41,421 nucleotides of DNA, from NCBI GenBank assembly GCA_029262115.1, contig JAJCZZ010000080.1:1-41421 (forward strand), written 5' to 3'. The DNA comes from Gemmatimonadota bacterium. GTDB lineage: Bacteria; Gemmatimonadota; Gemmatimonadetes; Longimicrobiales; Gaopeijiaceae. How positions within the stretch are numbered: position 1 is the stretch's first letter; each line of letters opens with the position of its first letter. The notes below the pieces were generated by a model. That model searched no databases and was not told where the DNA came from. It worked only from the letters and a program-made list of their open reading frames with translations. Of the stretch, positions 37,742-41,319 are shown piece after piece. Made by a program: the position numbers and the translations under genes.

Positions 37742-38467
37742 ATGTCTCGACGCTTCGATGAACAGGAAGTCGCGCTGATTCTCCGCGAAGCCACGCGGGT
37801 GGAGCGAGGATCCGAGGCCGAAACTGGGGACCCTCTCACCCTGAGTAGGCGCGAGGGTCTAACACTTGAGGACTTAAAGGAGATCGCGTCTGAGGCCGGG
37901 ATCGATCCGATTCGAGTGGATCGGGCCGCGCGCATCCTGTTGGCGCGGCCCCGCCAATCGCCCTTTCGCGTGTTCTTGGGAACTCCGGCTCAGATCAGGC
38001 TCCAGTACGAATTCCCCACGAAGATCGACGACAGAGATCTCAGCGAGGCGCTCTTTGAGATCCGATCAGTAATGTCTGTCCAAGGTACGTCCGGCGGTTC
38101 GCCCGGCGCATGGGAATGGGAGTCGGGGGATGAGTTAGGCGCTAGGTACGTCACCATCGCGCGGACCTCCACCGGGACCCGCCTGGACGTTACAGGGGAT
38201 TTCGGAAATGCGGCTCGGGGAGCGGCCGGAGTCGGAGCGGTAGTGGCCGGCGCGGGAGCAGTCGGCGTGACCGCAGCAGTCGCAGCAGTGGGAGCGATGG
38301 GCTGGGCCCTCGCTCCGGTCGTGGCGGTTGGCGTGGTTCTGATACCGCGCCTGACCGCCGGCCGCCTCGTTGTCCGGGAGACGCAGAAGTTATCGCGACT
38401 AGCGAGTCGGCTGCGAGCACTCCTATCCGCGAACGCCACCGACAGCGATCCGACAGAAGATGAGTGA
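37742..38467 (+). CDS. Ala/Gly-rich hypothetical protein
   Basis: A 241-residue protein in three parts: an N-terminal helical segment (RRFDEQEVALILREATRVERG; LTLEDLKEIASEAGIDPIRVDRAARILL), a central domain with few clear features, and a Gly/Ala-rich hydrophobic stretch near residues 155-205 (AARGAAGVGAVVAGAGAVG onward) that could form one or two membrane helices. The first part resembles hypothetical proteins I associate with Gemmatimonadota, but I have no function. It follows the XRE gene by 41 bases with AGAAGG upstream, and may share the operon. Confidence 0.65.
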   Translation: MSRRFDEQEVALILREATRVERGSEAETGDPLTLSRREGLTLEDLKEIASEAGIDPIRVDRAARILLARPRQSPFRVFLGTPAQIRLQYEFPTKIDDRDLSEALFEIRSVMSVQGTSGGSPGAWEWESGDELGARYVTIARTSTGTRLDVTGDFGNAARGAAGVGAVVAGAGAVGVTAAVAAVGAMGWALAPVVAVGVVLIPRLTAGRLVVRETQKLSRLASRLRALLSANATDSDPTEDE

Positions 38468-38518: not shown

Positions 38519-38782
38519 CTATCCCCGACGCACCCGTCCCGGCTCGACACCTCCGGCGTGGAGGATCTTCTCCTGGAGCCGCCGCCCCTCCTCCTCGGTG
38601 AAGTCGAGAACCCGGTCGAGCGACTCGGCGACTTCGAGGTAGGCATCCACCGGGAAGTCCGGCCCTTCCGCGCGTCGAAGAGCGCCGTCCAGGGCGCTCA
38701 ACTCGCGGGCGGCTTTCTCCGCAGCCCGACGAAGACGGTTCAGAGCCTTTCGCGCCTCGGACTCCGCTCCCCCGGCGGTCAA
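38519..38782 (-). CDS. Small coiled-coil protein of unknown function
   Basis: An 87-residue protein from TTG 38782, which overlaps the stop of the gene upstream (TTGA). The sequence ARKALNRLRRAAEKAARELSALDGALRRAE then LEVAESLDRVLDFTEEEGRRLQEKIL is strongly helical and charged, so a coiled coil is likely. No signal or membrane segment. Its tight coupling with the repeat-bearing membrane protein suggests a joint role. Confidence 0.55.
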   Translation of the reverse strand: MTAGGAESEARKALNRLRRAAEKAARELSALDGALRRAEGPDFPVDAYLEVAESLDRVLDFTEEEGRRLQEKILHAGGVEPGRVRRG

Positions 38783-39936
38783 AACACCGCCCGGAACAGT
38801 GTCACGCCGAGGGCGGGCTTCAGCTCGATCCCTCGGGGTCCGTCGAGCGCGTGCAGGACGGGATACGGAGCCGGCGGCTGGAGCGACAGCGACCCGCTCT
38901 GCCAACCCATGAGCGAGCCAGCGTTCTGCTCACCTCCGTCCAGCGAGTTCGGATCGCCTCGGGTCGCGTAAATGCCCATTGCGAGCCCCGCAACGCTGGT
39001 GATCAGCGGAATCGCGAGAATCGCCTGGCTATCATCGACCCCGGCAATCAGGTCGATACCGAAGCCGCCGATGGCTCCCAGGAGGCCGGCCGCGCTGACG
39101 ATACGCCAACGGCTGCGGCTCCACCGCAACTCGTCCGCCGAGAGCGCCGCGGCGGCCAGCCCAACGTTGCCGCCGACCACGGCAGAGGTGAGTAGCCCAT
39201 CCCCCTCGATATCGGCGACCACCCCGAGCGCGGTTCCGAACCAGGTGCCCCACAGGCCGCCGAAGTTCGCGCCCGTCGCCGCGCCATCCGAGATCGGCTT
39301 TCTGGCCAGAAACGACCCGACCGCCAGCCCCAGGGCGCTTCCCCCGATCATCGCCCATGCGGTCTCCTCCTCCCCACCGCCCACGTTGCAGAAGTCGACG
39401 TCGCAGTGGAAGGACTCCCCGAGGTCCAGGATCTCAGAGAGCGCGTAACCCTGCCACACGCCCCATGACCCACCGAGCGTGATCGCACGGGCCTGCCCCA
39501 CCGTGTACTGCTTGGCCTGCGCCGCTTTCCGTGCCGCGATGAAACCCGCGGGCCCTCCGAGCAACAGCCCGACGCCGAAAGCCTCCGCATCTTCGGCGCC
39601 GAGCGCCGTCGGCAGGGCGATGCCCAGGAAGATCCCGTACGTCGTGCCCCACACCTGAAGCTCCGTCGCACCACCCGCCGCCGCAGAGAAGCGTTCGCTC
39701 CGGATGACCGCAGCCGCCCGTTCAGCCTGCGCGGTGCCGGGAAAGCGCTCCACGATATATCGGTAGAGCGCACGCGCCACGCCGCCGTTTCCTTCCGCCA
39801 GGAACGCGTCCGCAGCCTGGATCAAGACCGCGGCAGAGTCGGCCACGCTGACCTGGGCGTCCACTTGTGATGGTGGCACGAATGCGAACAGGCACACGGC
39901 CCACATGAGCCCGGTGAGGGCGTGGCGGATCTTCAT
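38779..39936 (-). CDS. Exported protein with a TPR-like start and about eight Gly-rich ~29-residue repeats
   Basis: A 385-residue protein. A signal peptide (residues 1-27, cleaved near VDAQ) is followed by one TPR-like pair of helices (residues 35-78). Then a glycine-rich motif, roughly GG-x-x-G-x-x-x-G, recurs at about residues 97, 127, 155, 198, 226, 255, 287 and 314. Spacing is near 29 residues except one step of 43. Each unit could be a membrane-spanning hairpin or a strand pair, so the protein may be an outer-membrane or multi-pass membrane protein. I recognise no named family. ATG 39936 is preferred because the signal peptide follows it. Confidence 0.7.
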   Translation of the reverse strand: MKIRHALTGLMWAVCLFAFVPPSQVDAQVSVADSAAVLIQAADAFLAEGNGGVARALYRYIVERFPGTAQAERAAAVIRSERFSAAAGGATELQVWGTTYGIFLGIALPTALGAEDAEAFGVGLLLGGPAGFIAARKAAQAKQYTVGQARAITLGGSWGVWQGYALSEILDLGESFHCDVDFCNVGGGEEETAWAMIGGSALGLAVGSFLARKPISDGAATGANFGGLWGTWFGTALGVVADIEGDGLLTSAVVGGNVGLAAAALSADELRWSRSRWRIVSAAGLLGAIGGFGIDLIAGVDDSQAILAIPLITSVAGLAMGIYATRGDPNSLDGGEQNAGSLMGWQSGSLSLQPPAPYPVLHALDGPRGIELKPALGVTLFRAVF

Positions 39937-40086: not shown

Positions 40087-41061
40087 ATGACCGAGCGATT
40101 CGATTTTCTGGTGGTGGGAGCGGGCCCGTGCGGCATTGCCGTGGGTGCAGCTGCGGCGCGCGTCGGCGCATCATGCGCCCTGTTCGACAAAGGGTGCGTC
40201 ACCGCGTCGATCGTGGACTATCCCTACTACATGTCGTTCTTCAGCACCGCTCGAATGCTGGAGATTGGCAATGTCCCGTTCACGATTCCGAACGACAAAC
40301 CGACGCGCCGCGAGGCCCTGGCCTACTACCGGTATGTCGTGGATCACTGGGACCTGGACGTCCGGCAGTACGAGCGTGTGGAACAGATCGAGGGGTCGGT
40401 GGGCGGCTTCACGGTTCACACCCGGTCGATGGACGGCGTGGCACATATCTATGCTGCGGACCGCGTCGTGGTCGCCACAGGTGGTTTTCACGAACCGAAC
40501 CTCCTCGGCGTGCCCGGAGAGGACTCCGTGAAAGTTCGGCACTACTACAAAGAGCCGTACGAGTACTACGACCAGGACGTCCTGGTCGTGGGTGGACGCA
40601 ACTCGGCGGTAGAGTCGTCCCTCGAGCTCTTCCGGAACGGCGCACGGGTGACCCTCGTCCACTTCGAGCCGACGATCGACTCCGGCGTGAAGTCGTGGGT
40701 CGTGCCCGACATCCAGAACCGCCTGGACAAGGGCGAGATTGCTTCGTACTTCCGGCACCGGGTGGTCGAAATCCTGCCGAAGTCCGTCCGACTGCGCTCC
40801 GAGGTCGACCGCACCGAAGTGGAAGTCGCCAACGACTTCGTTGTGGCCATGACCGGATGGCGCGCGAACCCCTCTCTACTCACGGCGATGGGCGTGGAGA
40901 TCGACCCTGACACGGGGAAGCCGGTTCACGACCCGGCGACCATGGAAACGAACGTGCCCGGGGTCCACATTGCCGGGGTCATCGCAGCCGGCCACGACGC
41001 CAACAAGATCTTCATCGAGAACGGTCGGGAGCACGGCGAGTTGATCGTCGGGAGCGGGTAG
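40087..41061 (+). CDS. ypdA: YpdA-family bacillithiol disulfide reductase (FAD/NAD(P)-binding)
   Basis: A 324-residue flavoprotein. GxGxxG sites are FLVVGAGPCGIAVGAAAA (residues 6-23) and VLVVGGRNSAVESSLEL (near 165-180). SFFSTARMLEIGNVPF-x-IP-x-DKPTRREALAYYR is the YpdA signature. YpdA reduces oxidised bacillithiol with NADPH, so the organism probably makes bacillithiol. The ATG at 40087 directly precedes the Rossmann fold; a longer in-frame start at 39922 overlaps the divergent gene and is unlikely. No bshA/B/C genes are in the window. Confidence 0.9.
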   Translation: MTERFDFLVVGAGPCGIAVGAAAARVGASCALFDKGCVTASIVDYPYYMSFFSTARMLEIGNVPFTIPNDKPTRREALAYYRYVVDHWDLDVRQYERVEQIEGSVGGFTVHTRSMDGVAHIYAADRVVVATGGFHEPNLLGVPGEDSVKVRHYYKEPYEYYDQDVLVVGGRNSAVESSLELFRNGARVTLVHFEPTIDSGVKSWVVPDIQNRLDKGEIASYFRHRVVEILPKSVRLRSEVDRTEVEVANDFVVAMTGWRANPSLLTAMGVEIDPDTGKPVHDPATMETNVPGVHIAGVIAAGHDANKIFIENGREHGELIVGSG

Positions 41062-41154: not shown

Positions 41155-41319
41155 ATGACGCCCAGCCCGATCACCCGTGAGCAGCTTGAGGTCGAAGCCC
41201 GCAGCCTGCCGCGTGACGAACGAGCGCGTCTGGTGGAGGCCCTGCTTGCCTCGCTAGAGGAGGAGGCCGAGATCGAAGAGGCTAGCCGCAATACTCTTGC
41301 TTTAAGCTATATACAATAG
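41155..41319 (+). pseudogene. Addiction-module antitoxin, 3' end lost to an insertion
   Basis: The first 43 residues (ITREQLEVEARSLPRDERARLVEALLASLEEEAEIEEA) match the short RelB/ParD-type antitoxins (PF09720 pattern EA-x-x-LP-x-xERA-x-LVEALLASL). The usual continuation (W-x-x-E-x-x-RR) is missing; instead the frame runs 11 residues into AT-rich DNA and stops at 41319. AGGAGA precedes the ATG by five bases. The break near 41283 coincides with the left end of the transposable element. A toxin gene would be expected beyond that element. Confidence 0.75.

Follow-up and report, generated by a model that had tools for sequence, protein, structure and literature searches.

What kind of membrane protein is encoded at positions 38779..39936 of the minus strand of the window (the whole 41,421-nucleotide stretch of Gemmatimonadota contig JAJCZZ010000080.1 that was analysed), and in which membrane would it reside? 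The reading frame runs from an ATG at 39936 to a TGA stop, with no stop codon within its 385 residues, and the gene is single-copy in its own genome (one match at E ≤ 0.1). A scan for promoters and terminators found none. The gene is real and belongs to a conserved family that is unnamed in Pfam and NCBIfam: the query drew no Pfam family at E ≤ 1 and two NCBIfam matches, both far under their cut-offs, which agrees with the possibly unnamed family suggested by the first-pass annotation.

Relatives of the protein were found in 20 of the 59 nearest genomes, the window's own counted. A first protein-only scan of the contig collection gave no confirmed relative, and an alignment-based scan of the contigs of 84,980 species confirmed 29 loci among 37 pattern matches. 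Twenty-eight of these loci are labelled Gemmatimonadetes, Gemmatimonadota or Longimicrobiales and one Rhodothermales, a result that hinges on one peptide pattern and thus does not demonstrate absence outside Gemmatimonadota. The sole Rhodothermales-labelled match (L041, 40% identity) may come from a misnamed Gemmatimonadota bin. A survey of 395 genomes of the phylum yielded matches at E ≤ 0.001 in 108; 72 of these reached E ≤ 1e-20 in five listed families (41 in f1, 7 in f2, 9 in f4, 3 in f6 and 12 in f7), and the remaining 36 were weak, 33 of them with a best match confined to the TPR region described below. Plasmids searched by tblastn and the PHROGs collection contained no match to the protein, and among the papers searched none on Gemmatimonadota joins outer membrane protein with glycine-rich. 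The family statistics given below refer to 49 distinct rows kept of 89 matches, after removal of rows whose last 250 residues duplicated those of another and of matches that stopped short of model position 370 (50 rows, with the query present twice, for loops, cysteines and hydropathy; 45 complete rows for joint charge); the rows are related, and their counts are therefore not independent.

The mapped parts of the protein all lie on the minus strand. A putative signal peptide (residues 1-28; 39853..39936), with a candidate cleavage site at VDA-Q, stands at the N-terminus. AlphaFold2 was run on the window protein with 33 relatives (mean pLDDT 87.5, pTM 0.71; about 95 pLDDT in the core). After the signal, the model has a TPR-like part, probably periplasmic (residues 31-79; 39700..39846; helices 31-47, 51-64 and 69-79), and continues with eight glycine-rich helices in four hairpins. 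Hairpin 1 (residues 89-141; 39514..39672) consists of helices 89-111 and 117-141, hairpin 2 (146-210, long loop included; 39307..39501) of helices 146-169 and 189-210, hairpin 3 (217-270; 39127..39288) of helices 217-240 and 246-270, and hairpin 4 (274-324; 38965..39117) of helices 274-298 and 303-324. Two strands in loop 3-4 (175-179 and 182-186) form a beta hairpin (residues 175-186; 39379..39414) that carries Cys178 and Cys183. Further strands from 341 to 384 make up a C-terminal beta tail (residues 341-385; 38782..38916), whose last residue is Phe385 in an OMP-like terminal motif. Modelling of the membrane part alone produced the same architecture (pLDDT 89.2, pTM 0.74), the two runs having used a nearly identical alignment.

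Fold searches were filled by TPR matches and helical bundles. Foldseek, run against the PDB with the full protein and with its membrane part, gave no match at E ≤ 0.001, and the best VIA-align result for the helical domain reached Z 6.3 with an rmsd of 7.4 over 118 residues. The lack of a convincing PDB match is not proof of a new fold.

The first-pass annotation had described the protein as eight units of about 29 residues, each with a glycine motif, and had proposed structure prediction as a check, with a model lacking any repeated unit as the outcome that would speak against it. Glycine-rich stretches do start at residues 97, 127, 155, 198, 226, 255, 287 and 314 (spacings of 30, 28, 43, 28, 29, 32 and 27), two in each hairpin in that order, the 43-residue spacing being due to the long loop, variable in the family, that joins helix 3 to helix 4. 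The strict form GGxxGxxxG occurs at two of the eight positions (155 and 226), so that "motif-like" is the correct wording. Many invariant residues of the family are glycines of these motifs: alignment A1 (18 sequences, 36-49% identical to the query) has 15 invariant columns, 12 of them glycine, and alignment A2 (34 rows) has 11, namely G123, G147, G155, G156, G159, G203, G230, G234, G256, A151 and W229. Repeated units are present in the AlphaFold2 model, and membrane-type helices are likewise supported.

The size of the repeat unit differs from the one proposed. When the family profile was compared with itself across residues 86-325, the top offset was 128 (z 4.6; in 500 shuffles the highest value at any offset had 99th and 95th percentiles of 3.95 and 3.5), followed by offsets of 71, 32 and 57 (z 3.8, 3.6 and 3.4). 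Profile-profile alignment of the six hairpin pairs with hhalign returned probabilities of 97.9, 96.5, 95.2, 76.6, 75.2 and 1.2%, where 60 column-shuffled comparisons reached at most 4%; the pair without a match is hairpins 1 and 4. Scored unit by unit, the odd helices are alike (155-226, 97-155), and so are the even helices (198-255), which makes the repeat a two-helix hairpin of approximately 57-71 residues, present four times. A repeat architecture is thus upheld, and eight equal units are ruled out by both comparisons since odd and even helices form separate classes.

The N-terminal helices resemble TPR proteins. The family profile matches CpoB (6g5s) at E 7.5e-5, TPR_14 turns up at E ≤ 0.1 in 7 of the 18 members scanned, and Rhodothermus BamD (3qky) superimposes on the TPR-like part with Z 6.8 and an rmsd of 2.1 over 57 residues; TPR structures score up to Z 7.8 over ~50 residues, a level that 14-3-3 attains as well. 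The helix pair characteristic of TPR proteins corresponds to AlphaFold2 helices 31-64. The query alone has no Pfam TPR match, and against the full-length TIGR02795 (CpoB/YbgF) profile the score was 13.4 bits, below the cut-off of 90.1. The protein shares a TPR-like helix pair with CpoB/YbgF and BamD but differs from them in having about one TPR unit and in its hairpins, which have no counterpart in the matched parts. In the profile scan of the 18 members, TPR was also the commonest hint, accompanied by a single weak PIG-F match (E 1e-4) and one Gly-zipper_YMGG match (E 0.0078, in 1 of 18 members); the query itself matches no Gly-zipper profile of Pfam. At five loci in two close groups, a second copy without the TPR part lies directly upstream of the full-length gene (L032:4904-5920 and L043:4855-5859; L036:5091-5933, L037:2309-3208 and L040:5034-5933). 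These copies suggest that the core module is signal, hairpins and tail, with the TPR part optional.

The signal and the loops provide the first indications of which membrane is involved. Of 34 family rows, 32 have a permissive small-x-small pattern followed by Q or E somewhere in residues 13-55, and none has a lipobox pattern. The TPR-less paralogues, five among the 34 rows, also start with a signal-like segment, with the small-x-small pattern in 4 of 5. With an SPase-I-type signal and no lipobox, the TPR part and the start of helix 1 would be expected outside the cytoplasm, and loops 1-2, 3-4, 5-6 and 7-8 would consequently be cytoplasmic if the protein resided in the inner membrane. These odd loops are net negative in 93-94% of rows, and loops 2-3, 4-5 and 6-7 are net positive in 70, 72 and 94%; the joint pattern, odd loops summed negative and even loops summed positive, holds in 44 of 45 complete rows. 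Counting K and R alone, even loops are richer in 38 of 45 rows and not richer in 7 (mean 5.9 versus 2.5 in odd loops). Given an exported N-terminus, this pattern would be the opposite of the positive-inside rule, which SecY and two of the genome's MFS proteins follow in the usual alternation (the control was clean in three of six inner-membrane proteins, the other three having missed or extra peaks).

An even-loop-basic pattern is, however, normal for an inner-membrane protein whose N-terminus is inside, and basic even with acidic odd loops are what such proteins of the same genome have. An inner-membrane protein whose N-terminal hydrophobic segment leaves the TPR part unexported, and which obeys the positive-inside rule, would account for the charges; we nevertheless regard it as improbable, as the small-x-small pattern precedes Q or E in nearly all rows and recurs in the TPR-less paralogues. 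An eight-helix inner-membrane protein with its N-terminus outside and its TPR part and tail in the periplasm would instead break the positive-inside rule: its cytoplasmic loops would be the acidic ones, including the loop with the cysteine pair. In 50 rows, loop 3-4 (residues 170-190) has no cysteine in 29 and two in 21, but never one. This 0-or-2 pattern is what a disulfide, possibly Cys178-Cys183, would lead one to expect, and a disulfide would fit an oxidising side and not the cytoplasm. Against this argument, the rows without a cysteine in the loop are the majority.

Helix hydropathy bears on the same choice. The eight helices have a mean Kyte-Doolittle (KD) value of 1.32 over 19 residues, with helix 3 as low as 0.38 and helices 4, 6, 7 and 8 at 1.52-1.87. 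The best eight KD peaks of the mature protein average 1.39 across the family (range 1.05-1.58). For SecY and five of the genome's MFS proteins the best eight peaks average 1.86-2.20, and all peaks above 1.2 average 1.76-1.99; both measures lean high, because eight peaks were picked from 10 or more or only peaks above 1.2 were kept. Two of the six frames behind the best-eight values (L093 and L094) differ in length from the matched frames of the positive-inside control. SlyB gave peaks of 1.51 and 0.88 and TraT of 1.63 and 0.58, these being their best KD peaks, unmapped to their structures; in their weak hydrophobicity the family's helices are closer to these two than to SecY or the MFS proteins. 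The N-outside inner-membrane arrangement gains from the resemblance of eight glycine-rich helices to an ordinary inner-membrane bundle, from the four more hydrophobic helices, and from the best Foldseek matches, which, though not significant (E ≥ 0.19), are for the most part transporters or further polytopic proteins of inner or plasma membranes. Helices 7 and 8 (KD 1.83 and 1.87) are like some inner-membrane helices and might be hydrophobic enough to stop in SecYEG. The low hydropathy of helix 3, the OMP-like C-terminus and the acidic loops argue the other way, and we consider this arrangement unlikely, if to be taken seriously.

The C-terminus resembles that of an outer membrane protein. The last residue is F or W in 42 of 49 rows, with FR in a further 5, and of these 47 rows 45 have a phi-x-phi-x-F pattern (hydrophobic at -3 and -5, polar at -2 and -4); the family thus carries the C-terminal phi-x-phi-x-F/W of BAM-dependent OMPs. 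Among distinct Omp85/TonB-receptor matches of the same genome, 20 of 25 end in F, compared with 9 of 159 called neighbour genes, a background taken from rough gene calling in related loci and in the window, where some calls may be spurious. Outside a barrel, a terminal Phe may reflect only the tail's own fold. This motif, and the suitability of 29 residues for a beta hairpin, would fit a classical outer-membrane beta-barrel that AlphaFold2 had wrongly made helical. Such a barrel would also draw on the weaker component near 180 degrees in the conservation periodicity (p 0.066), but the peak lies at 105 degrees (p 0.006) and helical pLDDT was about 95 in both runs, albeit on nearly the same alignment. 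Hydropathy periodicity did not decide between helix and strand (p 0.05 in the alpha band, 0.12 in the beta band). The body is predicted to be helical, short strands being predicted only in loop 3-4 and the C-terminus and none as barrel-forming transmembrane strands, and we hold a barrel to be very improbable.

The genes around the locus were also compared. Directly downstream, and overlapping the TGA of the target gene with a likely TTG start at 38782, a gene on the minus strand (38519..38782) encodes a small, charged, helical, coiled-coil-like protein of 87 residues. Its family (searched with the 86 residues after the start codon) occurs in 41 of the 59 genomes, the window's own counted, with the target in 20 of the same 59. 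The best seven relatives aligned are 68-78% identical, and eight members scanned had no convincing Pfam or NCBIfam name; it is a separate conserved family, likewise unnamed. Co-translation with this protein, mentioned in the first-pass annotation, finds no support as a clue to function. Of 19 genomes with both genes, two have them adjacent, the window's and the sole other genome of the genus; in two others they are far apart on one contig and in 15 they lie on different contigs of draft assemblies. An operon was rejected on this count. As the coiled-coil gene was not found beside the target elsewhere, the pairing is a local accident of the genus or a recent coupling.

Neighbourhood genes at 30 loci were taken from a crude GC-based caller, which left the target itself uncalled in 7, the window included. 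Up to 12 closely related loci share three flanking gene types, which we take to be ThiF/MoeB-rhodanese-like, dehydrogenase-like and DUF255-like; this looks like plain synteny, and a conserved functional neighbourhood was set aside. A Pyr_redox-type reductase lies near the target at 4 of the 30 loci in differing arrangements. In the window, this is a divergent Pyr_redox_3-type FAD reductase at 40087-41058 (+) (Pfam E 7.5e-73), whose family lies near the target at three other loci. Also on the plus strand, a short ORF at 41155-41316, near the contig end, matches Unstab_antitox (E 4.2e-6), and 37742-38464 encodes a 241-residue protein with a Gly/Ala-rich hydrophobic stretch and no Pfam family at E ≤ 0.001.

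Taken together, the signal type, terminal Phe, loop charges, paired cysteines and weak hydrophobicity favor placement in the outer membrane, although each of these signs is indirect. We put the probability that the protein is a Sec-exported, polytopic alpha-helical outer-membrane scaffold at roughly one in two. The more specific proposal, a single-chain eight-helix outer-membrane family in Gemmatimonadota whose glycine-weakened helices pass SecYEG and whose OMP-type C-terminal Phe is the delivery signal, is tentative and somewhat short of an even chance. On the outer-membrane scaffold reading the signal peptide would be cleaved and the TPR hairpin would remain periplasmic, while the four Gly-zipper hairpins would cross SecYEG and escape retention in the inner membrane. 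The eight weakly hydrophobic helices would then pack in the outer membrane through their conserved glycines, with basic turns 2-3, 4-5 and 6-7 toward the periplasm and acidic turns 1-2, 3-4 (sometimes with the cysteine pair), 5-6 and 7-8 toward the cell surface. The C-terminal beta tail, with its terminal Phe, would lie on the periplasmic side and might direct the protein either to BAM or to a partner barrel.

Because the gene neighbourhood is not conserved, the function of the protein can only be inferred. Most likely it would serve the outer membrane as a structural element or scaffold, acting in the manner of SlyB or TraT, with the TPR part as an optional adaptor. A scaffolding or packing role fits better than an enzyme given the Gly-zipper helices, the CpoB/BamD-type TPR and the lack of an obvious catalytic motif; the invariant residues are Gly, Trp and Ala, and conserved polar residues in A2 include Q148, Q162 and R278.

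In the general view, outer membranes take in little besides beta-barrels and lipoproteins, since hydrophobic helices become trapped in the inner membrane, and proteins with many membrane-crossing helices are hardly known there. The helical exceptions are small: SlyB has a single hairpin, and each chain of Wza, TraT or SlyB contributes one or two helices. Single-chain outer-membrane proteins with eight transmembrane helices are, to our knowledge, unprecedented. If the outer-membrane reading is true, an outer membrane can be the destination of polytopic helical proteins, and a family with eight marginally hydrophobic helices and an OMP-like C-terminus would allow the rule for sorting between inner and outer membranes to be tested directly. 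SecY and MFS proteins are similar to the target in having multiple helices, but the target is less hydrophobic, has a cleavable-type signal and, given an exported N-terminus, would have loop charges opposite to the positive-inside rule. Recognition of hydrophobicity by SEC is described in part of a review (PMC13067283), passages of which also present SlyB and Wza as precedents for outer-membrane helices and SlyB as forming ring-shaped complexes that may encapsulate OMPs. SlyB and other Gly-zipper 2TM lipoproteins have glycine-rich helices of low hydrophobicity, as the target does, in the outer-membrane setting (PMC13067283) that is proposed for the target; SlyB, however, is annotated as a lipoprotein, whereas none of the 34 target rows has a lipoprotein signal. 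TraT, the surface exclusion protein of the F plasmid, is described in sections of PMC12258729 as a homodecameric lipoprotein that spans the outer membrane with transmembrane helices, two beside a globular core. The best two hydrophobic windows of TraT are glycine-rich (21% Gly each) and weak, as are the helices of the target. The target differs in being a non-lipoprotein with a TPR-like part and a C-terminal beta tail; where TraT has its helix pair and globular core, the target is predicted to have four hairpins of two helices each. TraT and SlyB are both lipoproteins, which counts against the outer-membrane placement of a family without a lipobox. We think that the target family may nevertheless work like TraT and SlyB, though it has eight helices and no lipobox.
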